DNA of 64,000 nt from Coriobacteriia bacterium (lineage in GTDB: Bacteria > Actinomycetota > Coriobacteriia > Anaerosomatales > Anaerosomataceae): the NCBI GenBank assembly GCA_030651765.1, contig JAUSBY010000015.1, forward strand, positions 1 through 64,000, given 5' to 3'. Of this stretch, positions 7,714 through 41,162 are shown piece after piece (position 1 is the first letter of the stretch; each line of letters begins with the position of its first letter). The notes beneath the pieces were generated by a model that saw only the letters and a program-made list of their open reading frames with translations, did no database searches and was not told the DNA's origin. Both the position numbers and the translations under genes were made by a program.

Positions 7714-10542
7714 TCACGGCCATGCTGGCTGGCCAGAGTCGACCTGCGTGTGCGATCCGCCCTGCGCCGTCTTGCAGTCCTTGCACGCCCACTGAGCGAG
7801 GCCGTTAGCGTCCCGTGTGTGACTCGTCACCTTGATCTGGATGAGGCCGGTCGCAGCGTACCTCGCGTCATCGGTCGTGTACCCGAGCAGGCGCGGCCGC
7901 TGCCAGCCGTGTGGCACGCTCACGTGGCAGTTGACGCAGTACTTCGGGCGGGTGTGCGTGACCATGTGCTGTGAGGTCGCATGTGCCGTGTTCGACCACT
8001 GGGATCCCACCAGAAGGTCATGGCACTTGGCACAGATGATGTTGGTCGCATCTGCCCCGCCGACGAACTCCATGCCGTTGACGCTCCCGGCGCTCAGGCC
8101 CGCGAGCTTCCAGTCGGCGCCATAAGCCGCATCGATCGTCCATGCCACGCCGCTGCCGTGCGGACCCTTTGCCTGCGTGTCGCTCGAAGCATCGTTCGTG
8201 TGGCACGACGTGCACGTGAGCTTCGTGTGGGGATCGTAGCTCCCCGTGAAGGTGGCTGTGGTCGGCAGCCACCAGGTGACCGAGGTGAGCGATCCACCGA
8301 TCGGGACCACGCTGAAACTTTGCTGCATCCCCACCGTCTGCCCGAGGACGTTGTGATACGAGGGGTTGGTCGGGTTGAACTCGCGCGCGACGTCGGTCGG
8401 CGAGTAGGTCTTCGATCCGCGGGTCACCGACGCCGGCTGGCTCGTGTTGGAACTGTGGCACTTGAAGCACAGGTACGCTTCGAAGTCCGTCGTGCCGCCG
8501 GCGAGCCCGTTGGCCGTGAAGGAGTTCGCGGCCCCCCAGATGCTTGCGGTGTAATCGGGCCACACCCCGAGCGCGCCGTAGACCGCTCCGCCCGCCACGC
8601 TCGTGTCGAGCTGATCTTGCGTCGCCGTGCCGCCCACCCGTCTGGCTTCGTGTGGGTTGTGGCAGTCCTCGCACTCGGCATGCCGGTTCGTTCCGCCGAG
8701 GTCGGCCGCAGTCTCGGTGTCGGTGTGCTTCGCGGTGGTCGCCGCCGGGTTGTGCCCGAAGGTGGCGGTCGCCTTCGTGATCACGTTCTTGGCGTCACTC
8801 GCGCGCCGGGTGGTGACGCCTGCCACCACCGTGGTTCCGTCACCATGGCACTGGTAGCAGAGGTTCTCCTCCTGCGACATTCCTACGCTCGCGTTCTCGC
8901 GCTCCCCGGCGTTAAGGCCGCTCGCGCCTGACGGCATCGTCCACGCGGTCAGTCGCGCAAACACCGAACCGTGCGGATCGTGGCAGTTCTCACACAGCGC
9001 CGGCGTGGTTGCGGCCGCGTAGTGTCCGGAGTCGGTGAATTCGCTCTTGTCCCAGCCGGCGAAGTACGGAGACTCGCCGCTCGAAAGGGCCGTGAAACCG
9101 ATGCGGGCGGGTACGAGCGTGTCCTGATCGATGGTGGCCGATGGCGGTGCGTCCGTGTGGCACTCCAGGCACATCCCCACGAACGACGCGGGCGACTGCT
9201 TGGTGTTGGAGGGCGAGCTCACCCGGTCCAGATCCCATGCCGAGGTGCCGCCGGCTCCCACCTCGTGCGCGTTGTGGCAACTGCTGCAGGTGAGCGACCT
9301 TCCTTCGGGCGAGGTGTACGCGGGGTGGCCCGAAGTCAGGGCGAACTCGGCCTCAACGTCACGATCGTTCCATGACAGCGGTGCCGAGTAGCCGGCGGCG
9401 GTGCGGGTCTCTTCAGACGCGGCGCTGTGGCATGCGAAGCACAGCGATGCCTCCGCGTACGTGCCGTCGGGGGTATCGACCGCGGTGTCGACTCCGCGGT
9501 ACGCGATCAGCTTGTCGGCGGCCGAGCCATGCCGCGCATGGCAGGTGAGGCACTGTACGCCCGAGTCGGTGGCACGTGCGGTGGCGTTGCCGAGCACGAT
9601 GTCGGGCCCGTGTGCCGCGTCGGCAGCGTAGCTGTGGTTCCCGCCGGTATCCGAGTACGCACCTGCGTCGCCCACGTATCCGATCGGCGTGGCGCTCGCC
9701 CCGTGACAGGCGGTGCAGAACGCGTTGCCGAGTGGCGCCGAGGCTTGCGAGTAGTACGTGTACGTGGGCTTGCCCCCGGCGTCCACGCCGGTCTGCACGC
9801 GGAGGAGCCGAGCGTAGGTTTGTGAGGCATCGTAGACGCCGTCCGCGCTGTAGTAGTACGACGCCCGGTGCGGGGTGTGGCATGCGTCGCACTCGGTGGT
9901 CTTTGCCACCATCGCGTCGGTTCGGTGTGTCGAGCCGGCCGACTGGCCGTCGTAGTCGGAGAACTCGGCTTTGATATTGAACGTGCTGCGGTCGCCGAGC
10001 GCTGACTCGGGGTTCTCGGCGGCTGTCGACCCGTGGCAGTAGTAGCACAGGGCCACGGTCCGGTAGTCGATCGGCGATGCGCCGTGCACGCTGTGGCAGC
10101 GGGTGCAGCTTATGACGGTGGGCGAGAGCCGGTAGCCATGGAGGTTCGGGGCGACCGTCGAGGAGACGGCCGAGGTGAGTCCGCCGGGGTCTTTGGCCCG
10201 CAGCGCGTAGAACCAGACGAAGGACTGCGCTATCTCGTCGGCGTGCGCATCGACCTGGACGCTCGTGCCGGTGACGCCACTTGCGACGAGCGTAGCCGAT
10301 GCGAGCGTGGCCGTTGTGACCGGAGCGCGGTAGCGGTAGACGTCGTAGGTCACGAGATGGCCGCCGGCGTCAGTGGATGGCTTCCATGTGATGGTGACCT
10401 TGCCGATGCCGCTTACGTACGCGTCCGGCTCCTGGGGAACCGTGGGCGTGGCTGCATGTGCAAGCGTCGGGAGCAGAAGCAGGCTGAGAGCCGTTGCGAC
10501 AACGATCGACCAACGGGGGACGCCGTACGCACGGCCGCTCAT
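7714..10542 (-). CDS. Exported multiheme c-type cytochrome, 15 CxxCH plus one CxxCK, with N-terminal fibronectin III-like domain
   Basis: Large exported cytochrome of 942 residues. A signal peptide (VPRWSIVVATALSLLLLPT) is followed by a fibronectin type III-like domain (residues ~33-130). Fifteen canonical CxxCH heme-attachment motifs follow (CTRCH, CYYCH, CDACH, CTACH, CLTCH, CFACH, CSSCH, CLECH, CENCH, CYQCH, CEDCH, CFKCH, CTSCH, CAKCH, CVNCH). A CKDCK lies close to the C-terminus. Start 10542 is preferred because AAAGGA sits seven bases upstream. An in-frame ATG at 10569 would overlap the upstream gene's stop as TGATG and is a real alternative. Likely a periplasmic or cell-surface electron carrier; no catalytic family was recognised. 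Coupling to the upstream membrane-anchored protein suggests they act together. Confidence 0.92.
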   Translation of the reverse strand: MSGRAYGVPRWSIVVATALSLLLLPTLAHAATPTVPQEPDAYVSGIGKVTITWKPSTDAGGHLVTYDVYRYRAPVTTATLASATLVASGVTGTSVQVDAHADEIAQSFVWFYALRAKDPGGLTSAVSSTVAPNLHGYRLSPTVISCTRCHSVHGASPIDYRTVALCYYCHGSTAAENPESALGDRSTFNIKAEFSDYDGQSAGSTHRTDAMVAKTTECDACHTPHRASYYYSADGVYDASQTYARLLRVQTGVDAGGKPTYTYYSQASAPLGNAFCTACHGASATPIGYVGDAGAYSDTGGNHSYAADAAHGPDIVLGNATARATDSGVQCLTCHARHGSAADKLIAYRGVDTAVDTPDGTYAEASLCFACHSAASEETRTAAGYSAPLSWNDRDVEAEFALTSGHPAYTSPEGRSLTCSSCHNAHEVGAGGTSAWDLDRVSSPSNTKQSPASFVGMCLECHTDAPPSATIDQDTLVPARIGFTALSSGESPYFAGWDKSEFTDSGHYAAATTPALCENCHDPHGSVFARLTAWTMPSGASGLNAGERENASVGMSQEENLCYQCHGDGTTVVAGVTTRRASDAKNVITKATATFGHNPAATTAKHTDTETAADLGGTNRHAECEDCHNPHEARRVGGTATQDQLDTSVAGGAVYGALGVWPDYTASIWGAANSFTANGLAGGTTDFEAYLCFKCHSSNTSQPASVTRGSKTYSPTDVAREFNPTNPSYHNVLGQTVGMQQSFSVVPIGGSLTSVTWWLPTTATFTGSYDPHTKLTCTSCHTNDASSDTQAKGPHGSGVAWTIDAAYGADWKLAGLSAGSVNGMEFVGGADATNIICAKCHDLLVGSQWSNTAHATSQHMVTHTRPKYCVNCHVSVPHGWQRPRLLGYTTDDARYAATGLIQIKVTSHTRDANGLAQWACKDCKTAQGGSHTQVDSGQPAWP

Positions 10543-10568
10543 CGCGGTGTCCTTTCGTCGGCCGGTCA

Positions 10569-11288
10569 TCACAGTTTCACCGCCTGCACGAAGACAAGCT
10601 CGCCGTCGGTGTCGGCGAGACTCGTGAGGTACCATTCACCGTCTACGTAGCGCAGGGGGATGGCGATCGTGTGCTCGGAGACGATCTCCGCGTCCTCCCA
10701 TCGGACGATCGCGTACGCCACATAGACCGTGGCTTGTCCCTGCGCGTAGACATCGACGTTGGCGCCCGGCGTGGAGCTCAGGATCGAGGGATAGCGCGCA
10801 ACGAGGCTGTCGGCATAGGGCTGCTGGCTGCCTTCATCCGGCGCCAACAGCAAGCCGAGCGCTGTGGCGTCGCCATCCATGAGCGCCGTCACGATCTTGG
10901 CGGCAGCGGCCTCGATCTCGATCGCGCCGCGCGTGACGACTTGCGCGGTCTCACGCTCGTAGACAGCCCACGGGTCGGGCACGGTCTCGTTGGTGTCGGT
11001 CTGTGGCGGGTCGTCGGTTGATGCGGCTGAGGTGCGGCGTGCGGGGGTCGAGCTGGCCCCAGACGCGGCCGGGGTGAGGTCGCGAGGAGTGGCGGGCGGA
11101 GTGGGGACGTCGACCACGTCAGGCGCTTGGGCGGGTGCGTCCGCAGCGGTCGCGGGCGGCGTGCCGTCAGAGGCGGGTGGAGAGTCCGACGGGTCTGTGC
11201 CGGGGACGCCGTTCCACGCTATCGCAACACCGAGCACCACCAGCGCCGTCAGGGCGATCCCGATCGCCCAGTGTTTCCGCGTGTCCAC
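10569..11288 (-). CDS. Membrane-anchored protein with Pro/Thr/Ala linker and NTF2-like C-terminal domain
   Basis: Protein of 239 residues that I do not recognise by name. One N-terminal membrane helix (residues ~7-25, WAIGIALTALVVLGVAIAW) is followed by ~75 residues of Pro/Ala/Thr/Ser-rich linker, typical of a wall-spanning spacer. A C-terminal domain of ~125 residues follows; its alternating helix and strand pattern (AIEIEAAAAKIVTALMDGDA, then VDVYAQGQATVYVAYAIV) resembles NTF2-like or Cif-like folds. Its stop is at or next to the start of the 15-heme cytochrome, so it is the first gene of that leftward unit. It may position or assist maturation of the cytochrome outside the membrane (inference). 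Confidence 0.75.
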   Translation of the reverse strand: MDTRKHWAIGIALTALVVLGVAIAWNGVPGTDPSDSPPASDGTPPATAADAPAQAPDVVDVPTPPATPRDLTPAASGASSTPARRTSAASTDDPPQTDTNETVPDPWAVYERETAQVVTRGAIEIEAAAAKIVTALMDGDATALGLLLAPDEGSQQPYADSLVARYPSILSSTPGANVDVYAQGQATVYVAYAIVRWEDAEIVSEHTIAIPLRYVDGEWYLTSLADTDGELVFVQAVKL

Positions 11289-29419: not shown

Positions 29420-29807
29420 GGAGCCTCCCATCATCGGGCGCCGCAGCGCGTCCGGCACGTTACGCCGTACTTGATGTATGCGCAGACTCGTTAACTGCAT
29501 AACGCAAGCTTAAGCACTTCCTGGCCGATGGATACAGGGAACCGCATCGCCAACAAGTGTGCCTGTCGGCGGGACGGCGGATCGGAGCGTCCCTGCATCG
29601 TCGGCCGCTCCGTTTCCTCCGTCTCGGCGCGGCAGTCCGCCCCCCGTTTCGTGTCGTCTTTGCGGCGGCATCGGCGACCTTATTGCATCATCGCCCGCAA
29701 GTGAATTCGTTCACTCTGCATACGCTATGGATTCTGAAGTGAAATCTGCGTTAGAATGCCCTACCAATCAGATAGCGACCGCTATCGCGTATGTAAGGGG
29801 GTTGGGC
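29420..29807 (+). promoter_or_regulatory. Regulatory region upstream of livK, with a Crp/Fnr-type palindrome
   Basis: 388 bases without a gene. AGTGA-N6-TCACT (29700-29715) is a perfect inverted repeat matching the half-site spacing of Crp/Fnr-superfamily regulators. TTAGAAT (29751-29757) is a plausible -10 with no strong -35, as expected for an activator-dependent promoter; the palindrome centre would lie near -56. The rest shows AT-rich patches (29490-29530) but nothing more that I can assign. Confidence 0.45.
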
Positions 29808-31025
29808 ATGGTGCACGAGAGGACACGCACGTTCCTCGCACTGAGCCTCGTCATCGTTCTTGCTCTCGGCATGTTCGGTGTCACCGGCTGTGCCGCCGAG
29901 ACTGATGGCGAGACAGACGACGGGGAGACCACCGGCGAAGTCGAGGTCATCAAGGTCGGCGTTCAGACGGCGCTCACGGGCCCGCTGCCGGACTACGGTG
30001 CCGCGGCCAAGAACGGTATCGAGCTCGCCGTCGAGGACTTCGGCACGTTCGAGATGGACGGCACGACCTACCAGGTCGAGCTCGTCGTTCTTGACGACAA
30101 GGCCGAGCCGGCCGAGTCTGCGGTTGTTGCCCAGACGATGGTCGACGAGGGTGTCGTCGGCGTTATCGGCAGCCTCACCACGGGCGCCACGCTCTCCGCG
30201 ATCCCGATCTATGCCGAGAACCGTATTCCGCAGATCAGCGGCTCGGTGACCGGGCCGGCGGCCAATGCCGACGGCGTGGACACGTTCTACCGCACCTGCT
30301 GGAACGATGCGGTGCAGGGCGAGGCTCTCGCCGTTTGGGCCATGGAGCTGGGCGCCAAGAAGGTCGTCCTCATGGACGACAATGGCGCGTACGCTGTCGG
30401 TCTTGCTGACGTTGCGGAAGACACCCTGAAGGCCGAGGGTGTCGAGACGCTGCGCCAGAACTGCCAGTCCGGCGACAAGGACTTCTCGGCCCAGGTGGCC
30501 AACGTCAAGGAGTTCGGTCCTGACGCCATCATCTTCACGGGTTATCACCCCGAGGCCGGCCTCATGCGCAAGCAGATGGTCGAAGCTGGTCTTGGCGATG
30601 TCATCTTCATGGGTGGCGACGGCATCAAGTCCGCCGAGCTCGTTGCTCAGACCGGTGGCGACGCCAACGCCGAGGGCATCTACGCGACCTTCGGTGGCTT
30701 CCCCGAGGAGCAGCAGCCCGGCTACGCGGCCTTCTCTGCGAAGTATGAAGAGGCCTACGGCGAGGCTGTGGGTCCGTACGCCCAGAACAACTACGACGCG
30801 TTCGGCGCCCTGATCGCAGCCATCAAGCAGGCTGGCTCGCTTGATACCGAGGCGATCATCGAAGCGCTGCAGACGGTCGAGTACGAGGGCGTTACCGGCA
30901 CGTTCAGCTTTGCCACCGCCGCTGACGGGCCCGTTGCCCGCGGCGACGTCGTGGTTGCCGGTCTCACGCCCGCCAACGTGCCGCGGTACGTTGTCGAGGG
31001 CGGGGAGTTCGTCTCCGTTAAGTAA
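29808..31025 (+). CDS. livK: Branched-chain amino-acid type ABC substrate-binding lipoprotein
   Basis: 405 residues. Lipoprotein signal (LALSLVIVLALGMFGVTGC), then an acidic Thr/Glu/Asp linker and a type 1 periplasmic-binding fold of the LivK/LivJ family (KVGVQTALTGPLPDYGAAAK at ~45-64; VVGVIGSLTTGATLSAIPI; IIFTGYHPEAGLMRKQM). ATG at 29808 has TAAGGGGG seven bases before it; upstream frame is unrelated. Codon use is strongly biased to C-ending and few rare codons, consistent with high expression. Ligand could be Leu/Ile/Val or another amino acid; in an ornithine fermenter it could also be an amino acid fed to that pathway (inference). Confidence 0.9.
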   Translation: MVHERTRTFLALSLVIVLALGMFGVTGCAAETDGETDDGETTGEVEVIKVGVQTALTGPLPDYGAAAKNGIELAVEDFGTFEMDGTTYQVELVVLDDKAEPAESAVVAQTMVDEGVVGVIGSLTTGATLSAIPIYAENRIPQISGSVTGPAANADGVDTFYRTCWNDAVQGEALAVWAMELGAKKVVLMDDNGAYAVGLADVAEDTLKAEGVETLRQNCQSGDKDFSAQVANVKEFGPDAIIFTGYHPEAGLMRKQMVEAGLGDVIFMGGDGIKSAELVAQTGGDANAEGIYATFGGFPEEQQPGYAAFSAKYEEAYGEAVGPYAQNNYDAFGALIAAIKQAGSLDTEAIIEALQTVEYEGVTGTFSFATAADGPVARGDVVVAGLTPANVPRYVVEGGEFVSVK

Positions 31026-31057
31026 GCCGTACCTGGTTCGCGTGTACTGAGTTGTAT

Positions 31058-31091
31058 CGGGGGGCGCAGGAGATGTATCCTGCGCCCCCCG
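31058..31091 (+). terminator. Intercistronic hairpin between livK and livH
   Basis: Perfect 14-bp stem CGGGGGGCGCAGGA / TCCTGCGCCCCCCG with a six-base loop (31072-31077), starting 33 bases after the livK stop. No T run follows. Probably a partial terminator or stabiliser that keeps binding-protein mRNA more abundant than that of the membrane components. Confidence 0.65.
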
Positions 31092-31176
31092 CGTGCGTCA
31101 CGGCGGAAGATAGTGCAGAATGCTCGGGAGCATCTGCGCGCCGCCCGTAGGTCCGAATATCGGCGAGGAGCCACAG

Positions 31177-32397
31177 GTGAGTCTGGATCACATAGTCAGC
31201 GTCACGATCGGCGGCCTGACCGTGGGTATGATCTATGCGCTTATCGCGCTGGGTTACACCATGGTCTACGGTGTGCTCAAGTTCATCAACTTCGCGCATG
31301 GCGAGGTCTTCACGATCGGCGGGTATGTGGCGGCCTTCACGCTGCTCACGCTCGGCGTGAACGACGGGATGTCGGCGATCGCGGTGGCGGGATGCCTCCT
31401 GGCCGCAGTTGTGGCGTCAGTACTCGTGCCTATGGCCATCGGTTTCCTGGTGGAACGCATCGCCTATCGACCGCTGCGGGGCCGCGCGCGCATCATCCCG
31501 CTGCTCTCGGCCATCGGTGTGTCCATCGTGATGCAGCAGTCGATCATTCTCGTCTTCGGCTCCAAGCCCGTCACGATCCCGACGCTCGCTTTGAGCTCTG
31601 CGTCGATCGTCGTGGGTGGCATCCGCATCCGCGTCCTCGCACTCGTCATCATCGTCGTCTCGGCCGTGTTGATGGCCGGCCTCACATACCTGGTCAAGTC
31701 GACGCGCATCGGCAAGGCCATGCGAGCCACGTCGCAGGACATGGAAGCTGCCGAGATGATGGGCATCGACACGAACAAGACGATCGCCTTCACCTTCATC
31801 GTCGGCTCGGCGCTTGCCGGCATCGGCGGGTTCCTCGTCATCATGTACTACGGTTCGCTGAAGTTCGACGCGGGCTTCCTCTACGGCCTCAAGGCGTTCA
31901 CCGCCGCCGTGCTCGGCGGCATCGGTAACATCCCCGGCGCCGTCGTCGGCGCCCTCGTCCTCGGCATGACCGAGACGTACGGCGTGAGCGTGGACCTCGG
32001 CTTCCTGGCGTGGTTCGTGGTCGCTGGTCTCGTCCTCGGCCTGTACGTGCAGATGGTGCGTATTCCGCGGCGTCGGCTGCAGCACATCGCCGAGGACCGG
32101 CGCACGCCCGAGTACGAGCGCAGCCTGCTGAACGTGTACCGCCTCACCCCGTATCACGGCGTGAAGACACTGCTCGCGGAGCGCACCGACGCGCTCCTGT
32201 CGGTCTCGGCGGAACACGCCGTCCGACTGATGGCGGGCAACGTCTTCCTGGCCGTGGTCGCTGCGGTGATGTTCGTCAATGCCAACGTGCGCATCGACAC
32301 GCGCTGGCAGCCCGTCATCGCGTTCGTCGTGCTGATGGTGATACTGATGTTCCGGCCGTCGGGTATCCTCGGCGAAGCCATCACGGAGAAGGTGTAG
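31177..32397 (+). CDS. livH: Branched-chain amino-acid ABC transporter permease LivH, with C-terminal insertion
   Basis: 406 residues, about 100 more than a usual LivH (~300). The first ~285 residues follow the family closely (GGLTVGMIYALIALGYTMVY; KFINFAHGEVFTIGGYVAA; AFTAAVLGGIGNIPGAVVGA coupling loop). An extra segment then adds one membrane helix (AWFVVAGLVLGLYVQMV), a basic cytoplasmic stretch of ~60 residues (RIPRRRLQHIAEDRRTPEYE...) and another helix (NVFLAVVAAVMFVNA). The chain rejoins the normal end VILMFRPSGILGEA. GTG 31177 has GAGGAG seven bases upstream. The insertion is in frame, with no sign of damage. Confidence 0.9.
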   Translation: MSLDHIVSVTIGGLTVGMIYALIALGYTMVYGVLKFINFAHGEVFTIGGYVAAFTLLTLGVNDGMSAIAVAGCLLAAVVASVLVPMAIGFLVERIAYRPLRGRARIIPLLSAIGVSIVMQQSIILVFGSKPVTIPTLALSSASIVVGGIRIRVLALVIIVVSAVLMAGLTYLVKSTRIGKAMRATSQDMEAAEMMGIDTNKTIAFTFIVGSALAGIGGFLVIMYYGSLKFDAGFLYGLKAFTAAVLGGIGNIPGAVVGALVLGMTETYGVSVDLGFLAWFVVAGLVLGLYVQMVRIPRRRLQHIAEDRRTPEYERSLLNVYRLTPYHGVKTLLAERTDALLSVSAEHAVRLMAGNVFLAVVAAVMFVNANVRIDTRWQPVIAFVVLMVILMFRPSGILGEAITEKV

Positions 32398-32400
32398 CCG

Positions 32401-33543
32401 ATGAGACTTTCCGAGGTCACAGAGCGCGTGAGCGGCGCTGCCGCCCGGGTGCCGCGCAGCGTGTACGCAGTGGGTGGACTCGTCATCGCGATAATCTTCC
32501 CGCTGCTGAACATGGCGGGCTGGGTCGAGACCGCGTGGCTTCGCGTCGGCGTGATCTCGCTGCTGTTCGTCATGCTTTCGCTCGGTCTCAACATCGTCAT
32601 GGGCGAGACCGGTCTGCTCAATCTGGGTTACATCGCCTTCTTCGCGTTCGGTGCGTACACCACGGCGCTGCTCTCGTCACCTAAGTTCGAGCTGCGGTGG
32701 CCGTTCCTGGTGGTGGTGGTGCTCAGTGCGCTCATCGCGATGGTGGCAGGCTTCGTCATCGGCCTGCCCACGCTTCGGCTCCGCGGCGACTACCTCGCGA
32801 TCGTCACGCTCGCCTTCGGCGAGATCGTGCGTCTCACGATCACCAACCTGCAGGACTTCACGAACGGCCCCAACGGCATCACCGGCATCTATTCGCCGCG
32901 GCTGGTGGGCGAGGGTGCGCTGGAGTCACTCGGCTCGACAGGTCCTGCGGCGTGGCTCGTCATCGACAAACCCGTGGAGTACTACTATCTGGTGCTCGCC
33001 TGCGTGGCCGTGACGGCGGTCCTGATCTCCAATCTGAAGAACTCGCGCATCGGCCGGGCGTGGAACGCGCTTCGCGAGGACGAACTCGCCGCAGTCTCGG
33101 CAGGCATCACCGCGTCGCGTGCGAAGCTGCTCTCGGTGGTGCTCTCGGCGGGTATCGCGGGCTTTGCGGGCTCGCTGTTCGCCTACTACTCCAACGTCAT
33201 CAGTCCCGAGTCGTTCCTGTTCATGCAGTCGGTCATCGTCGTGTGTATGGTCGTGCTCGGCGGCATGGGCTCGATCCCGGGCGTCATCCTCGGCGCCATC
33301 GTGCTGCAGGCGCTGCCGCAGGTCATCAGGCAGGCGGCGGGCGCTGCGCGCAGTGAGTTCGAGGTCTACAGGATGCTCATCTTCGGCATCATCATCGTCG
33401 TGATGGTGATCTTCCGGCCGGAGGGCCTGCTCCCCGACACGTTGTGGCGCCGTGAGGCGCACGAGGTCGACCCGCGCGAGCAGGAGAAGACCCGTCAGAG
33501 CCTCTTCGATCTCGAAGAGGGCGAGAAGGACCTGGAGGTGTAG
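32401..33543 (+). CDS. livM: Branched-chain amino-acid ABC transporter permease LivM
   Basis: 380-residue permease with about ten membrane helices. Family motifs are GLNIVMGETGLLNLGYIAFF (residues ~61-80), the GLPTLRLRGDYLAIVTLAFG region, and the GGMGSIPGVILGAI coupling loop. The C-terminal charged tail (EVDPREQEKTRQSLFDLEEG) extends into the cytoplasm. It starts three bases after livH and ends two bases before livG, so it is tightly coupled. It pairs with LivH to form the transmembrane channel. Confidence 0.94.
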   Translation: MRLSEVTERVSGAAARVPRSVYAVGGLVIAIIFPLLNMAGWVETAWLRVGVISLLFVMLSLGLNIVMGETGLLNLGYIAFFAFGAYTTALLSSPKFELRWPFLVVVVLSALIAMVAGFVIGLPTLRLRGDYLAIVTLAFGEIVRLTITNLQDFTNGPNGITGIYSPRLVGEGALESLGSTGPAAWLVIDKPVEYYYLVLACVAVTAVLISNLKNSRIGRAWNALREDELAAVSAGITASRAKLLSVVLSAGIAGFAGSLFAYYSNVISPESFLFMQSVIVVCMVVLGGMGSIPGVILGAIVLQALPQVIRQAAGAARSEFEVYRMLIFGIIIVVMVIFRPEGLLPDTLWRREAHEVDPREQEKTRQSLFDLEEGEKDLEV

Positions 33544-33545
33544 CC

Positions 33546-34334
33546 GTGGGCACGATTCTCGAGTTGCAGGGCGTGTCCATGAGTTTCGGCGGCCTGAAGG
33601 CCGTGGACAGCCTGTCCTTTGACGTGCGAGAGAACGAGATCGTCTCGATCATCGGACCGAACGGCTCCGGCAAGACGACCACGTTCAACGTGATCAGCGG
33701 TCTGTACGAGCCGGACTCGGGCGATATCCTCCTCAAGGGCGAGAGTGTCGCCGGTCTGCGCCCCGACCAGGTCCACGACAAGGGCATCTCGCGCACGTTC
33801 CAGAGCCTCCGGCTGTTCTCGAACATGAGCGTGCTCGACAACGTGCTCGTCGGCATGCACTCGGTCACCGACGCGGGACTCATCGCCTCGATGCTGCGTC
33901 TGCCGAAGGTGCGTCGCGAGGAAGCCGCGATGCGCGTGAAGGCACGCGAGATCCTCGAGATGTTCCCCGGCCGGTTCTCCGGCCCGCGCCAGCAGCAGCC
34001 GGCGTTCTCGCTGTCGTATGCCAACCGGCGCCGGCTCGAGATCGCACGGGCGCTCGCGTCCGAACCCGCGCTGCTCCTGCTCGACGAGCCGGTGGCCGGC
34101 ATGAACCCGATGGAGTCCCGCGAGGTGATGGAGCAGATCAAGGTGCTCCGGGACAAGGGGTACACGATCCTCATGATCGAGCACGATATGCATGTGGTCG
34201 AAGGGGTGTCCGACCGCGTTATCGCGATGGACCACGGCGTGAAGATCGCCGAAGGCACGTATACCGAAGTCGCCAACGATCCGCAGGTTGTGGAGGCCTA
34301 CCTTGGCAAGCGAGCAGCAGAAGCCACTGCTTGA
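33546..34334 (+). CDS. livG: Branched-chain amino-acid ABC transporter ATPase LivG
   Basis: 262-residue ATPase: Walker A GPNGSGKTT, signature region LSYANRRRLEIARAL, Walker B LLLLDEPVAGMNP and H-loop IEHDMHVVEG. In most LivG proteins the signature reads LSYGQQRRLE; here G and Q are replaced (LSYANRR), which may alter the ATP sandwich but is still within the family's variation. GTG start follows livM with GGAGGTG at the junction. The 3' end overlaps the start of livF. Confidence 0.93.
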   Translation: MGTILELQGVSMSFGGLKAVDSLSFDVRENEIVSIIGPNGSGKTTTFNVISGLYEPDSGDILLKGESVAGLRPDQVHDKGISRTFQSLRLFSNMSVLDNVLVGMHSVTDAGLIASMLRLPKVRREEAAMRVKAREILEMFPGRFSGPRQQQPAFSLSYANRRRLEIARALASEPALLLLDEPVAGMNPMESREVMEQIKVLRDKGYTILMIEHDMHVVEGVSDRVIAMDHGVKIAEGTYTEVANDPQVVEAYLGKRAAEATA

Positions 34335-35031
34335 GTTCCGGAGCGTCGAGACGTACTACGGGCGCATCCAGATCCTCAAGGGAGTCAACTACCAGGTCCA
34401 CCCTGGCGAGATCGTCTGCCTGCTGGGCGGCAACGCATCCGGCAAGTCGACGACGATGAAGACCATCCTCGGCATCGTGAAGCCGGCCAAGGGCACGGTG
34501 CTGTGGGAAGGTGAGGTCATCAACAACCTGCGCACAGCCGAGCGCATCAAGCGCGGCGTTGCCACCGTCCCGGAGAACCGCCGGCTCTTCCCGCACCTGA
34601 CGGTGCTCGAGAACCTCGAGATGGGCGCATACACGCGCACCGACTCGGCCGAGATCGCCGCCGACCTCGAGCGCGTCTACGAGTTCTTCCCGAAGTTGGC
34701 CGAGCGCCGGAAGCAGCGTGCGGGCACGCTCTCCGGTGGCGAGCAGCAGATGGTGGCGTTCGGCCGCGCGCTCATGAGTCGTCCGAAGCTCATCTGCATG
34801 GACGAGCCGTCGATGGGGCTTTCGCCGGCGCTCGTGGACCAGAACTTCGACCTCATCCAGCAAGTGAACGAGCAGGGCGTCGCCGTGTTCGTCGTGGAAC
34901 AGAACGCCACCGCTGCTCTCTCGATCGCCGACCGCGGCTACGTGTTGCAGGGCGGGCGCGTCGTCATCGAGGGCACCGCCGCCGAGCTGCTCGACAATCC
35001 CGAGCTGAAGCGGGCGTATCTGGGCGGGTAG
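34303..35031 (+). CDS. livF: Branched-chain amino-acid ABC transporter ATPase LivF
   Basis: 242-residue ATPase with Walker A GGNASGKST, signature LSGGEQQ, Walker B LICMDEPSMGLSP and the H-loop position occupied by Glu-Gln (VVEQNA), which is normal for LivF. The TTG at 34303 is chosen because GTGGAGG lies six bases upstream; an in-frame TTG at 34288 precedes that site. It overlaps the livG 3' end by 32 bases. Forms the heterodimeric engine with LivG. Confidence 0.92.
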   Translation: MASEQQKPLLEFRSVETYYGRIQILKGVNYQVHPGEIVCLLGGNASGKSTTMKTILGIVKPAKGTVLWEGEVINNLRTAERIKRGVATVPENRRLFPHLTVLENLEMGAYTRTDSAEIAADLERVYEFFPKLAERRKQRAGTLSGGEQQMVAFGRALMSRPKLICMDEPSMGLSPALVDQNFDLIQQVNEQGVAVFVVEQNATAALSIADRGYVLQGGRVVIEGTAAELLDNPELKRAYLGG

Positions 35032-35105
35032 CGAACGAGCGCTGCCGCGGCTCTTCAGGCTGGCCGCTCCCTGACCGATACTCATGAGTGACGCACCTGG
35101 TGCGT

Positions 35106-35111
35106 TATGCT
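35106..35111 (+). promoter_or_regulatory. Probable -10 element for the nine-heme cytochrome gene
   Basis: TATGCT, 55 bases upstream of the ATG; the same hexamer occurs at the proposed -10 of oraS and of the sensor kinase. No good -35 is visible. Confidence 0.3.
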
Positions 35112-35166: not shown

Positions 35167-38100
35167 ATGCGCAGGCGTCACGCGGTAGCCATACTTGCCG
35201 CAGCACTGGTCGCAGGGATGTTCGCGGTGCCGGACACAGCGGCTGCGGTCCTGGAGAACGAGTACGGGATGCGTTATGCGGGCCGCGCGGTGTGCGTGAA
35301 CTGTCACGCCGCCTCGGTCTACGGTGCTACGAGCCACGATGAGTTCGCGACGCCGGGAGCCGAGCCGAGCGCGGATCACATGTGGCCGGCGGGGCGCATC
35401 GGGGTCGGTCTCCAGCTCGAGCGCTCGGACATCGGCTTCACGCTCGGTGCGGGCACCGGCGCGCGCTCTTACCTGGTGAAGAACGCACTATCGCGGGTGC
35501 CCGTTGCCTACACCGAGGTGGCTGGCGAGGACCGCTACATGACATCGGTCCGGGCGTCTGTGGATGGCTTCGCCTCGGCGGATACCGTGGTGGTGGCCAC
35601 CGGCGAGGCGTTTCCGGACGCGCTCGGTGGGGCGGCGCTCGCGGGCGCGGTCGACGGCCCGCTGCTCCTGACGCGCACCGGCACCGTCCCCGCAGTCGTG
35701 ATCGACGAGATCGAGCGTCTCGGCGCGACGAAGATCTACGTGCTCGGCGGAGAGGCCGCCGTCGCGCCAGCCGCATTCGCACAGCTCGATGCACTCGGCG
35801 ATGCCGTGCGGCTGTCCGGCGGCAACCGGTACCAGACTGCCGCCGCAGTGGCTGCCGAGACCATCAAGGTCCTTGGAGGCGGCTACGGCGGTGCAGCTTT
35901 CATGGCCACCGGCACCAACTTCCCTGACGCGCTCGGTGCGTCCCCGATCATGTATGCCAAGGGTATGCCGCTCGTGCTCGTCGATGGTAGCGGCGCGTTC
36001 GTGCTGCCGTCTCAGGTGACGTCGGTCAAGGTACTCGGCGGCACCGGTGCGGTTCCCGCTTCCGTCGAGTCTGCGCTTGGCGCCAGACTCGACGGAAGAC
36101 TGCAAGGCGCCACTCGCTACGCAACGGCGGCCGCGGTGGCCGACTACGGCGTGTCTCTCGGTATGACGTGGAACGGCGTCGGCATCGTCACCGGTGAGAG
36201 CTTCCCGGACGCGCTCTCCGCCGGCCCGCTGTTGGGTTCCAAGAATGCCGTCATGCTGCTCTCCACGTCCGGGAATCTCGCTCCCGACGCTGCCGCGAAG
36301 CTTGCCACCAACAAGGGCGTGATCGCGAAGGCGACGTTCGTTGGCGGCACGGGTGCGCTTTCGGCCGCCACCCGCAACGAGGTCAGGGCGATCCTGACCG
36401 GTGTCGCGCCCGCCGGGACCAACCCGTTCGGGGTCTCGACACTCGAGTGGGATCCCGCGCACCCGGACCAGTGGGAGATGGGTCCTGAGGGCATCTCGGT
36501 GAACGCGTACACGTGCGGTGGCTGCCACCACCTTGGCTGGGTGGCTCAAGGGCTCCTGCCGACCGCCGGCAAGTTCATGGCCACCGCCACGACACCTGTG
36601 GTCAACGGCTGGGTGACCGACCCCGCCGGTCCCACGACGTCTCCCGAAAAGTACATCGCGGGCGCGTCCATCCAGTGCGAAGTATGCCACGGCACCGGCG
36701 AGGCCGGCGTTGAGGCCAACAACCACTGGGCGGGCTTCTCGAGCAACGTGAAGATCCTCAAGGGAACGCAGCTGCTCGACTCGCAGGTCTGCGGTCAGTG
36801 CCACGGGCGCTACAAGGGCGGCAACACGCGCGGCTACACTCCCGACCAGAATCTCCTGACCTTCGTCACGCCGTTCGGCTTCAGTGACATCCCCGCCGAG
36901 GAGAACTGGAACGGCGGGACCAACGCCGCCACCGGCAAGCCGTGGGACTTCTTCCCGAGCGGCCAGAATCGCACCATGAAGCACTCCTACTACTCGGAGT
37001 GGATCCTCTCGGCACACTCGTACCGCGGCCAGTACTACGGCGCTACGAACGACGCGCGCGTGACCCCGTATCAGAAGGTCGTCGGCGGCTACTATAGCGC
37101 CAAGACATCAGGGCTCAACTGCGCGAAGTGCCACACCGGCGAGGGTTACGCCAAGCGCAAGGGACTGGCGCTCATGACGCAGTTCGAGCCGACGGGTGAG
37201 AACGTCGGCTACATGGGCCAGGAGTGTGTCACCTGCCACATCCCGCACGGCGCGGACGCCGAGACCGGCATGGCCGTGCGTGAGCCGGATGCCGAACCCA
37301 CGCTTGCCGGCGTGACGATGACGAGCATCTGCGAGGACTGCCACAACTGGCAACTCGAGGTCGAGGGACGGCCGCTCGTGACCGCGCCTCTGCCCGTGAC
37401 CGCGTACGGCGCTCCGGCGAGGGACCTGAGTAGTCGCGGCGGATACAGCCACCCGACGCGCGAGATCTACAACGGTGTGGGCATGTTCGAGGTCGACGAC
37501 GCCGGGAAGTTCATGCCGGGCGTGGCCTGCGAGGACTGTCACATGCCGGCGACGAAGTCGGACTACCCCGACAAGACCGGTGTCGAGCGCCATGATGACC
37601 GCTCGTGGAAGCGCTACAGCCACCGAATGTTCATCATGGAGCCCGGTGACGCCGAGGAGTGGGGTCTCGCTCCGTGGGGCGACTCCTGCTCACCGTGTCA
37701 CGTCAGTCAGACGCAGCACGAGCTCCAGCAGGCCATCGAGCAGTGGCAGGATGAGGCGGCCCAGGCGGCGACCGTGGCCGCAGACGCGTACGCCGCCGCA
37801 TGGACCGCAGCCGACGATCCCGGTGCGCTTGAGGACCCCGACTCTGACGGCTTCGTCACCCTCATGGGCCGTGCCTACTACAACCAGCGTTCGTACCTGG
37901 GGGAGGGCTCGCTCGGCGCGCACAATCCCGCCTACATCGTGGCGGGCCTCAAGGCCGCCACGAAGATGGCCAAGTCGGTCAACGGCGTATTTGCGTTCGT
38001 TGACTCGGGCTCGGCGTTCCCCGGGGCCGACTACATCGTCGGCAACGTCAGGAACGGTGATGACACCGGCGCAGCCGGCGCCGAGATCGTCATCACGGTT

Positions 38101-38235
38101 GACGGCGTTTCCAGCACGGTGCTGAGCGATGCCAACGGCAACTTCGCGTTCCTGTTCGCTGACTCCGCTTCGATAGACGCGATCGCCTGGAAGCGCTGTA
38201 GCGATCCGGCGGCCGACCTCTACCCGTCCTTCTAG
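35167..38235 (+). CDS. Exported nine-heme cytochrome c with internal CWB2 cell-wall-binding repeats
   Basis: 1022 residues. A signal peptide (VAILAAALVAGMFAVPDTAA) is followed by heme motif 1 (CVNCH, residues 43-47). Residues ~115-425 then hold three CWB2-type cell-wall-binding repeats (RYMTSVRASV...ADTVVVATGEAFPDALGGAAL; RYQTAAAVAAE...FMATGTNFPDALGA; RYATAAAVADYG...IVTGESFPDALSA). Eight more CxxCH motifs follow from residue 450 (CGGCH, CEVCH, CGQCH, CAKCH, CVTCH, CEDCH, CEDCH, CSPCH). ACEDCHMP and the following His/Arg pattern recall NrfA/HAO-type multiheme cytochromes. The C-terminus has a carboxypeptidase-regulatory-like beta domain. ATG has GGGGGTG upstream. Likely a wall-anchored electron carrier or terminal reductase; substrate unknown. 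Confidence 0.93.
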   Translation: MRRRHAVAILAAALVAGMFAVPDTAAAVLENEYGMRYAGRAVCVNCHAASVYGATSHDEFATPGAEPSADHMWPAGRIGVGLQLERSDIGFTLGAGTGARSYLVKNALSRVPVAYTEVAGEDRYMTSVRASVDGFASADTVVVATGEAFPDALGGAALAGAVDGPLLLTRTGTVPAVVIDEIERLGATKIYVLGGEAAVAPAAFAQLDALGDAVRLSGGNRYQTAAAVAAETIKVLGGGYGGAAFMATGTNFPDALGASPIMYAKGMPLVLVDGSGAFVLPSQVTSVKVLGGTGAVPASVESALGARLDGRLQGATRYATAAAVADYGVSLGMTWNGVGIVTGESFPDALSAGPLLGSKNAVMLLSTSGNLAPDAAAKLATNKGVIAKATFVGGTGALSAATRNEVRAILTGVAPAGTNPFGVSTLEWDPAHPDQWEMGPEGISVNAYTCGGCHHLGWVAQGLLPTAGKFMATATTPVVNGWVTDPAGPTTSPEKYIAGASIQCEVCHGTGEAGVEANNHWAGFSSNVKILKGTQLLDSQVCGQCHGRYKGGNTRGYTPDQNLLTFVTPFGFSDIPAEENWNGGTNAATGKPWDFFPSGQNRTMKHSYYSEWILSAHSYRGQYYGATNDARVTPYQKVVGGYYSAKTSGLNCAKCHTGEGYAKRKGLALMTQFEPTGENVGYMGQECVTCHIPHGADAETGMAVREPDAEPTLAGVTMTSICEDCHNWQLEVEGRPLVTAPLPVTAYGAPARDLSSRGGYSHPTREIYNGVGMFEVDDAGKFMPGVACEDCHMPATKSDYPDKTGVERHDDRSWKRYSHRMFIMEPGDAEEWGLAPWGDSCSPCHVSQTQHELQQAIEQWQDEAAQAATVAADAYAAAWTAADDPGALEDPDSDGFVTLMGRAYYNQRSYLGEGSLGAHNPAYIVAGLKAATKMAKSVNGVFAFVDSGSAFPGADYIVGNVRNGDDTGAAGAEIVITVDGVSSTVLSDANGNFAFLFADSASIDAIAWKRCSDPAADLYPSF

Positions 38236-38288: not shown

Positions 38289-38377
38289 TCTGTCGTGCGG
38301 CGTGCGTTCGCGTCGGCGGTCGCGTAAAGTCGTATCGAACGTCTGCACAAATGTATACATCCTCGGAAGGAGCCGGC

Positions 38378-39388
38378 ATGATCAAGGTCGCGGTGTGGGG
38401 CACGGGCATGATGGGCCAGGGTCTGCTCGGGTTCCTCCTTGACCGGCCCAAGGACGTCGAGATCCTCGGCGCCATCGTCACCAACCCCGCCAAGGAGGGC
38501 AAGACCGTCGGTGAGCTGCTCGGTCGGCCGTGCGACGTGCGCATGACCACCGATGCCGCGGCGGTCCTCGCCGGGAAGCCCGACGTCGTGTGCATCTGCA
38601 CCCAGAGCAATCTGGACGAGGTCACCGACCAGGTGGAGGCGGCCGTACGCGCGGGCTCGAACGTGCTGTGCATCGCCGAGAAGCTCGCTTACCCGTGGGC
38701 AAGTGACGCCGAGTGGGCCGATCGCTTCGAGGAACTCGCGATGGAGCACGACGTCTCCATCCTCGGCACCGGCATCAACCCGGGCTTCATCCTCGACGCG
38801 CTCATCGTGGCATGGAGTTCGATCTGCCTGAAGATCGACCGCATCGAGGCCCAGCGCGTCAACGACCTCTCGCCGTTCGGACCCACCGTCATGGCGAGCC
38901 AGGGCGTGGGCACCACCGTCGAGGAGTTCGAGCGTGGCGTGGCCGATGGCACGATCGTAGGCCACATCGGCTTCCCCGAGTCCATCGGCCTTATCGCTGA
39001 CGCGCTTGGCTGGGAGATCGACGAGGTCATCGAGACGCGCGAGCCGATCGTCACGACCGTGCCGCGCGAGACGTCGCACATCAAAGTCGCCCCCGGCGAC
39101 GTGTGCGGCTGCAGGCACATCGGCCGCGGCTACAGCGGCGGCGAGCTCAAGATCGAGCTCGTCCACCCGCAGCAGATACATCCGGGGCTCGAGGGCGTGG
39201 ATACCGGCGACTACATCCGCATCGTCGGCGACCCGGACGTCCACATGGCCAACACCCCGGAGATCCCGGGCGGCAAGGGCACGTACGCGAGCACCGGCAA
39301 CTACATCCCGCTCATCGTGGACGCGCCAGCGGGTATCCTTACCGTGACCGACCTGCCGATTCCGCGGTTCTGGTCGCCGACGGCATAG
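38378..39388 (+). CDS. ord: 2,4-diaminopentanoate dehydrogenase (oxidative ornithine pathway)
   Basis: 336-residue NAD(P)-dependent dehydrogenase. An N-terminal Rossmann motif (VAVWGTGMMGQGLLGFL, residues 4-20) is followed by a dihydrodipicolinate-reductase-like catalytic domain. Converts (2R,4S)-2,4-diaminopentanoate to 2-amino-4-oxopentanoate with release of ammonia. Identity rests on the overall family pattern plus the two thiolase genes directly downstream. ATG 38378 preferred over 38351 because GGAAGGAG lies five bases before it. It is first of the ord-ortA-ortB unit. A ten-base palindrome ATGTATACAT lies at 38351-38360 in its leader. Confidence 0.92.
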   Translation: MIKVAVWGTGMMGQGLLGFLLDRPKDVEILGAIVTNPAKEGKTVGELLGRPCDVRMTTDAAAVLAGKPDVVCICTQSNLDEVTDQVEAAVRAGSNVLCIAEKLAYPWASDAEWADRFEELAMEHDVSILGTGINPGFILDALIVAWSSICLKIDRIEAQRVNDLSPFGPTVMASQGVGTTVEEFERGVADGTIVGHIGFPESIGLIADALGWEIDEVIETREPIVTTVPRETSHIKVAPGDVCGCRHIGRGYSGGELKIELVHPQQIHPGLEGVDTGDYIRIVGDPDVHMANTPEIPGGKGTYASTGNYIPLIVDAPAGILTVTDLPIPRFWSPTA

Positions 39389-39421
39389 GGTCCGTGACCG
39401 ACGGAGTGCGAGGGGTGCGCC

Positions 39422-39748
39422 ATGGCTGATGCGTTCCGCTGCAACGCGGGTGACTGGGTGGAGATCGAGCGGGTGTTGCTCGAGCCGTCCGAGCGGGCCT
39501 CGGGACTGCCCGAGGACACGGCGGCCCAGCCGCTGCGCGCGTGGGTGAAGGGTTTCGCGCTCGAGGGCGGTCTCATCGGCGACGAGATCGGCGTGGAGAC
39601 GATGACCGGCCGGATCGTGCGCGGGCATCTCTCGGCCGTCGCGCCGGGCTACACACACACCTTCGGCACGCCGTCGGCCGAGATCGTCTCGATCGGACGT
39701 GACCTGCGCGCACGCGTAGCCGCCTACCGCGCCAAGGCGGGTGAGTGA
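39422..39748 (+). CDS. ortA: 2-amino-4-oxopentanoate thiolase alpha subunit
   Basis: 108-residue small subunit of the PLP-dependent thiolase that cleaves 2-amino-4-oxopentanoate with CoA to acetyl-CoA and alanine. The sequence (DWVEIERVLLEPSERASGLP...HTFGTPSAEIVSIGRDLR) matches the OrtA family, which has no catalytic motif of its own. Its stop lies inside the first codons of ortB (eight-base overlap), as expected for an obligate heteromer. Confidence 0.9.
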   Translation: MADAFRCNAGDWVEIERVLLEPSERASGLPEDTAAQPLRAWVKGFALEGGLIGDEIGVETMTGRIVRGHLSAVAPGYTHTFGTPSAEIVSIGRDLRARVAAYRAKAGE

Positions 39749-41162
39749 CGTGACCACCCGCTACGAACAGGTCATGGCCCGCAAGGGCGAGATCATGGTC
39801 CGCGCGCTGGGCATGGACTACGCCGAGTTCGAGCGCAGCCCCATCGCGTTCGACTACGAGGGCATGATGGGCGCGCACGGCTACTCGCTCGATGACATCC
39901 GCGGCATCCAGGCGGCTGCGGGAGTCGGGACGACGCCGCTGCTCGAACTCCGTAACCTGACCGATCTCGTGCGGTCCTACGCCGAGCCGGGATTCGGCGC
40001 GCGCCTGTTCGTGAAGGACGAAGCCGCCAACATGGCCGGCTCGTTCAAGGACCGGCGGGCTTCCATGAGCATCCATGTGGCCGCTGAGAAAGGCTACGCA
40101 GGCGTGATCGCCGCAACCTCGGGCAACTACGGTGCGGCGGTGGCGAGTCAGGCCGCGCGCGCGGGCCTGAAGTGCATCATCTGCCAGGAGACGTTCGACT
40201 CACGCCACATCGGCCAGCCGGAGATCGTCGAGAAGTCGCGCCTGTGCGAGGCGTTCGGCGCCGAGGTCATCCAGATGTCCGTCGGCCCCGAGCTCTTCTT
40301 CCACATGCTCGAGTTGCTGGATGAGACCGGGTACCTCTCGGCCTCGCTCTATTCACCGTTTGGCGTCTCGGGCATCGAGACGCTCGGCGCGGAGCTCGCC
40401 GAGGAGATGACGGCACTCACCGGGGCACCACCGACGCACGTGGTGGTGACGCATGCGGGCGGCGGCAACACCACCGGCACCGCGCGGGGTCTGAAGCGCG
40501 CCGGCGCCACCGCGACCGAGATCGTCAGCGCGAGTGTGGACCTGTCGGGTCTGCACATGGCGAGCGACACCGACTTCAACCGCAAGAGCTTCACCACGGG
40601 CCACACCGGCTTCGGCGTGCCGTTCGCCACATGGCCCGACCGCGCGGACGTGCCGCGCAACGCTGCGCGCTCGCTGCGGTACATGGACCGATATCTCACC
40701 GTCACGCAAGGCGAGGTCTTCTATGTGACCGAGGCACTCGCCAAGCTCGAGGGCCTCGAGCGCGGGCCGAGCGGCAACACGGCGATCGCCGCGGCGATGT
40801 CGCTTGCGCGCGACCTGCCGCGGGATGCCACCGTGGTCGTGCAGGAGACCGAATACACGGGCGCCGGCAAACACCACTGGTCGCAACTGGCGTTCGCGCG
40901 CGAGCAGGGTGTCGAGGTCCGCGCGGGCGACCCGGCCGACAACGTTCCCGGCACGGTGATCGTCATCCCCGAGCGTCCCGAGCAGATCCGTGCCAAGGAC
41001 TTCGATCTGTCTAAGATGCACCGCTCGTACGTTCGCAACGCGCTTGCCCACGCCCCCGAGGGTTACGAGCCCACGCCCGCCGATGTCGTCTTCCTCGCCG
41101 AGGACAGCAACACGTCGCCGGCGATCGTCAAGGAGATCATCGCGGGGCTCAAGGAGCGCTAA
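39741..41162 (+). CDS. ortB: 2-amino-4-oxopentanoate thiolase beta subunit (PLP-dependent)
   Basis: 473-residue fold-type II PLP enzyme related to threonine synthase. The PLP lysine is in MAGSFKDRR (about residue 101). A phosphate-binding glycine loop (SGNYGAAVASQAA) and the second Gly-rich loop THAGGGNTTG follow. With OrtA it performs the thiolytic cleavage that ends the oxidative ornithine pathway, giving acetyl-CoA and D-alanine. GTG start at 39741 overlaps ortA; a second GTG at 39750 is an alternative. The gene ends 11 bases from the convergent sensor kinase gene, with no visible terminator. Confidence 0.93.
   Translation: MSDVTTRYEQVMARKGEIMVRALGMDYAEFERSPIAFDYEGMMGAHGYSLDDIRGIQAAAGVGTTPLLELRNLTDLVRSYAEPGFGARLFVKDEAANMAGSFKDRRASMSIHVAAEKGYAGVIAATSGNYGAAVASQAARAGLKCIICQETFDSRHIGQPEIVEKSRLCEAFGAEVIQMSVGPELFFHMLELLDETGYLSASLYSPFGVSGIETLGAELAEEMTALTGAPPTHVVVTHAGGGNTTGTARGLKRAGATATEIVSASVDLSGLHMASDTDFNRKSFTTGHTGFGVPFATWPDRADVPRNAARSLRYMDRYLTVTQGEVFYVTEALAKLEGLERGPSGNTAIAAAMSLARDLPRDATVVVQETEYTGAGKHHWSQLAFAREQGVEVRAGDPADNVPGTVIVIPERPEQIRAKDFDLSKMHRSYVRNALAHAPEGYEPTPADVVFLAEDSNTSPAIVKEIIAGLKER

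Follow-up and report, generated by a model that had tools for sequence, protein, structure and literature searches.

Introduction

The closest described system is OcwA (TherJR_2595; structure 6I5B), a nonaheme cell-surface terminal reductase reported from Thermincola potens. Six of its hemes are described as bis-histidine coordinated, one as His-Met coordinated, and two as open with His-His pockets; superposition of hemes 1-4 on cytochrome c554 gives 0.84 A, a beta-sheet subdomain (residues 75-156 in the numbering of that paper) lies between hemes 1 and 2 and builds part of the dimer contact, and the protein reduces hydroxylamine and, slowly, nitrite (PMC6703420). In the scheme proposed for Thermincola, OcwA receives its electrons from a cytochrome embedded in the wall (PMC7911101). 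An OcwA homologue has also been reported for Anaerosoma tenue of lineage OPB41 (PMC9686372), and EMTCatB1 is reported to dominate a thermophilic biocathode with a methanogen, where several of its multiheme genes are highly expressed (PMC7943316). With regard to wall attachment, CWB2 triplets are described as anchoring Clostridioides difficile proteins non-covalently to PSII, an anionic wall polymer, and as being placed at the N- or C-terminus; Cwp66 seems to tolerate the replacement of proline by alanine (PMC4973711). For most bacteria with a thick Gram-positive wall, it is an open question how electrons cross it and what keeps the terminal reductase in place there.

Here, we analyzed a gene in a stretch of 64,000 nucleotides from a Coriobacteriia genome (contig JAUSBY010000015.1, positions 1 to 64,000; hereafter the window), which encodes a nonaheme cytochrome with a CWB2 triplet inside its chain. 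We proposed that the product is probably a wall-docked, secreted extracellular reductase of the OcwA kind with an intact heme chain.

Results

CXXCH patterns occurred 32 times in the whole window, compared with 3.3 expected by chance, and nine of them fell in the open reading frame (ORF) 35167-38235, which is real. Its features are as follows.

35167..38235, + strand: coding sequence of the OcwA-like nonaheme cytochrome with internal CWB2 triplet, 1022 aa
35167..35250, + strand: predicted signal peptide, about residues 1-28 (read from the sequence; the model has an N-terminal helix at 2-27)
35293..35307, + strand: heme 1 CXXCH, residue 43, with the conserved histidine H57 after it
35500..36402, + strand: three CWB2 repeats, residues 112-412 (Pfam, AlphaFold2 model and fold match)
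35515..36432, + strand: insertion relative to relatives without an insert in this loop, residues 117-422 (profile alignment)
36514..37701, + strand: hemes 2-9, CXXCH at 450, 504, 542, 652, 687, 722, 788 and 841
37714..37977, + strand: C-terminal three-helix bundle as in NrfA/OcwA, residues 850-937 (model; OcwA fold match)
37984..38232, + strand: C-terminal Ig-like beta domain, residues 940-1022 (model; fold matches)

One of the nine motifs (residue 43) lies N-terminal to the CWB2 block and eight (450-841) lie C-terminal to it, in agreement with the first-pass annotation, which had described three CWB2 repeats between heme 1 and hemes 2-9 in one chain. We preferred the start at 35167 to an upstream ATG at 35107, since the relatives align from the signal peptide and since 35107 falls inside a terminator-like hairpin (35088-35108), itself taken from a scan that found no more than chance. 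Judged by the apparent signal peptide, the nine-heme protein would be secreted. In the AlphaFold2 model, the bundle is formed by helices 850-883, 894-912 and 921-937, and the Ig-like domain matched macroglobulin and bacterial Ig-like domains at Z 7-9. The Pfam names MtrC/MtrF and Cytochrome_C7 on this protein are matches to single heme stretches. An assembly chimera or mis-assembly was ruled out, because the same layout recurs in three other genomes (L028, L029, and L030, in which the contig begins too late to show heme 1) and because dN/dS in the CWB2 part was 0.23 compared with L028 (same genus) and 0.19 compared with L029 (another genus).

The cytochrome part was compared with solved structures, and it matched OcwA (6I5B) at 4.5e-7 in a single-sequence search, at E 7.2e-44 with a profile of 11 homologues covering hemes 2-9, and at E 4.1e-82, over chain residues 15-493, with a profile of nine relatives without an insert in the loop that started from heme 1. 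The model of the window protein matched the same structure at Z 10.7 across model residues 611-936. On these alignments, the window cytochrome is an OcwA homologue, and by sequence and model its core can be assigned to the NrfA/MccA/octaheme family. Eight histidines outside the CXXCH motifs are conserved in the family (H57, H520, H606, H617, H694, H762, H819 and H919), six of them in all 13 rows, H57 in each of the 12 rows that reach it (the remaining row is truncated) and H617 in 11 of 13, and eight is the number expected for six distal ligands plus one histidine per pocket. Reading the alignment by eye, we found seven of the eight on an OcwA histidine and H520 within three residues of one. 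H57, H520, H617, H694, H819 and H919 are the candidate distal ligands of the six bis-histidine hemes. Of the two His-His pocket motifs, only the second histidine is kept, the positions corresponding to K605-H606 and S761-H762; H606 and H762 are invariant in the family and the first histidines are replaced, and catalysis may therefore differ from that of OcwA. Two other family members, L037:4784-7831 and L019, have CX4CH at heme 1 and CX3CH at heme 9 in place of CXXCH, which are possibly alternative heme-binding spacings.

We then addressed the distribution of the family. The cytochrome part was matched in 14 of 69 genomes of the order (E <=0.001) and in 14 of 396 genomes of the class (E <=1e-10), and a scan of 84,980 species' genomes yielded 39 loci, 12 of which were near-complete (L028-L038 and L044) and constitute the close family; some of the genomes behind these 12 loci coincide with those of the order-level search. 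Domain layouts were taken from a domain search for 10 of the 12 loci, from inspection for L034 and from alignment for L028. The CWB2 block is internal in L028, L029 and L030 (its start cut by the contig), so that, with the window, this layout occurs in four genomes, all of one family. CWB2 stands at the C-terminus in L033 and L035, an SLH triplet stands at the C-terminus in L036 and L044, and the other five loci have Ig-like or no recognised C-terminal additions. In the cytochrome tree, which excluded the distant loci L039, L041, L043 and L046-L066 as well as the partial L045, the cytochromes with internal CWB2 formed one clade (100/100), the sister of which was the EMTCatB1 protein with C-terminal CWB2 (99/96). 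In the CWB2 tree, the three comparable inserts also formed one clade (100/100) and did not group with the C-terminal CWB2 of the EMTCatB1 type; a constraint that grouped the two was not rejected (p-AU 0.092, 18 rows). The occurrence of C-terminal CWB2 (two loci) or SLH (two loci) in related cytochromes indicated that wall anchoring was gained more than once.

The nearest relative is Actinobacteria bacterium UBA2272 (L028), which belongs to the same genus. Between the window gene and L028:4741-7827, fourfold-site differences were 0.35-0.53 for residues 181-660, compared with mostly 0.03-0.18 in the flanks of this segment, residues 841-900 being at 0.29. This mosaic looks as if recombination had exchanged the middle segment, which holds hemes 2-4 together with the second and third CWB2 repeats.

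Among the 12 close-family loci (L028-L038 and L044; the contig-end fragment L045 was left out of this count), five have a 19- to 24-heme open frame directly downstream of the reductase (L029, L030, L032, L033 and L035), with 24 hemes in L033 and 19 in L035. No large multiheme frame adjoins the reductase in the window or in L028. The homologue of this wire in the window genome was found on another contig (L114:3705-5906, G000:C15), with 32 CXXCH in 734 aa; the frame runs off the contig end and contains near-identical tandem repeats. Yet another contig carries a 25-heme frame (L115:2979-4742 (-), G000:C8), the N-terminus of which looks NapC-like by eye, the NapC type being quinol-oxidising. There is also a 13-heme frame with weak FG-GAP matches (L110:1-3051 (-), G000:C6). 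At its own locus, the window gene stands outside any electron-transfer cluster, flanked by Liv branched-chain amino acid transporter genes (29559-35031, +) and by ornithine-degradation genes (38351-41162, +) that include 2,4-diaminopentanoate dehydrogenase and OrtB; by the starts of the frames, UBA2272 (L116) seems to have the same Liv genes upstream and the same dehydrogenase downstream. A second multiheme cytochrome in the window (7714-10635, -; 973 aa, 15 CXXCH in paired-CXXCH domains) adjoins a gene whose product combines an NlpC/P60 domain with a PcsB-like coiled coil. The locus of the EMTCatB1 sister protein could not be tied to the gene tags of the biocathode expression data (PMC7943316).

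In an alternative reading, the protein might be a wall-held reductase of soluble acceptors, such as nitrite, hydroxylamine or another oxyanion, with reduction of metals or electrodes a side reaction or absent. Both pockets keep their second histidine, the core falls in a family that contains NrfA and MccA, and the nitrite and hydroxylamine activities described for OcwA (PMC6703420) point the same way; however, the several unrelated wall anchors and the large multiheme neighbours in the relatives fit extracellular electron transfer better, and none of the nine motifs is the catalytic CXXCK found in most NrfA, every one reading CXXCH. We regard this alternative as unlikely, and an OcwA-like extracellular reductase remains our preferred reading.

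The CWB2 block itself is well defined. Pfam CW_binding_2 (PF04122) matched three stretches of the protein (E 6.8e-42; 142 bits compared with a cut-off of 24.9), and the similarity that the first-pass annotation had placed at residues 115-425 was found there, with agreeing coordinates. Residues 111-410 were modelled by AlphaFold2 with pLDDT mostly 84-97, and the computed fold matched the triplets of Cwp6, SlpH and Cwp8 at Z 36-38 over ~300 residues (Cwp6, Z 37.9), so that structure prediction also bore out the CWB2 assignment. PILL-like motifs occur at 165 (PLLL, repeat 1), 268 (PLVL, repeat 2) and 361 (AVML, repeat 3); the first two conform to P[ILV][ILV][LV], and the third has A for P. The block occupies residues 112-412 of 1022 and is thus internal, and since position is no defining trait of the module, this is a CWB2-containing protein of unusual layout.

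The fetched stretches of the window's genome contain 32 other CWB2 ORFs of at least 150 aa, a survey that set aside one match in a 103-aa open frame (G000:C6:457652) and the UBA2272 row (L116). The protein ends within 63 residues of the block in 26 of the 32, two are cut by the contig end, and in four the block lies elsewhere, which is consistent with the earlier statement that CWB2 normally sits at a terminus, in this genome mostly the C-terminus. None of the 32 carries more than two CXXCH motifs. The number of these ORFs suggests that the host wall probably offers a CWB2 ligand. Two blocks away from the C-terminus, in L105:7271-12559 (-) (535-836 of 1763) and L111:2179-3981 (-) (75-388 of 601), grouped together in the CWB2 tree (99/94).

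The anchoring of an electron-transfer protein to the wall, as had been suggested at first pass, is the likely purpose of the block, and the protein would then be located in the wall. It is improbable that the block no longer binds the wall and persists as a leftover, or that it serves the beta subdomain only as a spacer or a surface for contacts. Such a role could be read from its insertion in the subdomain that gives part of the OcwA dimer contact (PMC6703420), and from the missing proline in the PILL motif of repeat 3, but proline-to-alanine changes seem tolerated in Cwp66 (PMC4973711), all three repeats are kept, identity of the block between species is 67-78%, and the dN/dS values of 0.19-0.23 indicate purifying selection in these alignments. 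A wall-binding block on an OcwA-like reductase is the reading that we retained.

To place the block relative to the hemes, we used an alignment (A4) of nine relatives without an insert in this loop (L031-L038 and L044). Profile positions 3-127 aligned with residues 2-116 of the window protein and positions 136-677 with residues 423-1019, so that ~306 residues stand in for ~8 profile positions. Correspondingly, the spacing between hemes 1 and 2 is 407 residues in the window protein, 407 in L028 and 413 in L029, compared with 103-115 in L031, L032 and L033. The same profile aligned to OcwA through heme 1, the beta subdomain and heme 2, and by this alignment the insertion site maps to one of the loops of that subdomain. 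As the insert-free relatives align end to end, on both sides of the block, the alignment identifies the block as a clean loop insertion. Neither AlphaFold2 model resolves the heme core with confidence, so that heme-heme distances are not derivable and heme packing was argued from homology: the model of the window protein (15 rows) had a pTM of 0.42 and a poor heme core, with pLDDT <50 for most of 21-109 and 414-561, and that of the L033 cytochrome, which has no insert in the loop, was worse (mean pLDDT 51.7). By homology, hemes 1-9 probably form one packed core despite the insert, heme 1 being placed in it because OcwA hemes 1-4 superpose on cytochrome c554, and the CWB2 block would hang off the loop with the hemes not separated in space.

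The first-pass annotation had inferred hemes on both sides of the wall, and this part was not supported. A relay through the wall in one chain, in which CWB2 occupies the wall while heme 1 and hemes 2-9 lie on its opposite sides, is very improbable. The block does part heme 1 from hemes 2-9 in the linear sequence, and a comparable design has been proposed for ANME archaea, whose giant heme proteins would contain S-layer domains and a linker with one heme (PMC9012536). However, the relatives align on both sides of a block that replaces only ~8 profile positions, heme 1 of OcwA is part of a c554-like four-heme core (PMC6703420), all 12 rows that reach H57, the histidine following heme 1, retain it, and a lone heme would hardly pass electrons across a 300-residue block. 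Separate cytochromes with 20 to 32 hemes are the likelier carriers of electrons from the membrane to the surface.

Discussion

Starting from the computed fold of the block, its clean insertion, the OcwA homology and the conservation of the layout in four genomes, we infer the wall location, electron flow, acceptor and partner of the reductase as follows. Nine c-type hemes in one compact core would accept electrons from multiheme cytochromes that start at the membrane, and would pass them to an acceptor at the outer wall face. Candidate acceptors are minerals, electrode-like surfaces and shuttles, or a small oxyanion that would be reduced at either of the two open-coordinate hemes. Between hemes 1 and 2, the three CWB2 repeats would project as a unit from the tip of a loop in the beta-sheet subdomain and bind an anionic wall polymer, thereby docking the reductase and leaving the heme chain uninterrupted.

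In a further, less likely reading, an anchor mounted on the beta subdomain beside hemes 1-2, and not on a flexible tail, might determine how the reductase is oriented in the wall. The branched nine-heme core might then present one end to the 20- to 32-heme wire and the other to the outside, and the anchor might replace the OcwA dimer contact that uses the beta subdomain. If true, this would be a built-in alignment of redox proteins across a thick Gram-positive wall. The family offers a natural series on the same nonaheme core, with no obvious anchor, C-terminal SLH, C-terminal CWB2, or CWB2 in the loop, and wall docking and orientation are thus directly testable by comparing these variants.

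Compared with known systems, the window protein shares with OcwA the nine CXXCH motifs, the conserved histidines, the second histidine of both pocket motifs, and a colinear homology that runs from heme 1 through the beta subdomain and hemes 2-9 to the helix bundle at the C-terminus. It differs in that OcwA is without CWB2, whereas the window protein adds 300 residues in the beta subdomain and a C-terminal Ig-like domain, and in that both His-His motifs have another residue in place of their first histidine. The proposed hand-over from wire to reductase in the window organism resembles the Thermincola scheme. Coriobacteriaceae bacterium EMTCatB1 (L033) and E2_metabat.bin.6 (L035) likewise combine this cytochrome family with a CWB2 triplet in one chain, but their CWB2 is C-terminal and a 24- or 19-heme frame, respectively, lies directly downstream. 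Three CWB2 repeats as one block are shared with Cwp2, Cwp66 and SlpA of C. difficile, in which, as far as described, the triplet is at the N- or C-terminus and not in a cytochrome (PMC4973711). The nearest published idea is that of the ANME S-layer multiheme cytochromes, in which an envelope-binding domain inside a multiheme chain is proposed to serve transfer through the surface layer; these are described as having 20-80 hemes, a linker that itself contains a heme, an S-layer domain of the archaeal kind and a membrane helix at the C-terminus (PMC9012536). The archaeal S-layer domain was absent among the Pfam families matched here at E up to 1, and the likeness is an analogy, the ANME proteins not being relatives by any comparison made here. 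Neither a wall anchor inside an OcwA core nor CWB2 in a multiheme cytochrome was found in the open-licence literature searched, a search of weak scope. Taken together, both the kind of cytochrome and the kind of anchor are already known, and it is the internal placement of CWB2 that is new within the searches made.
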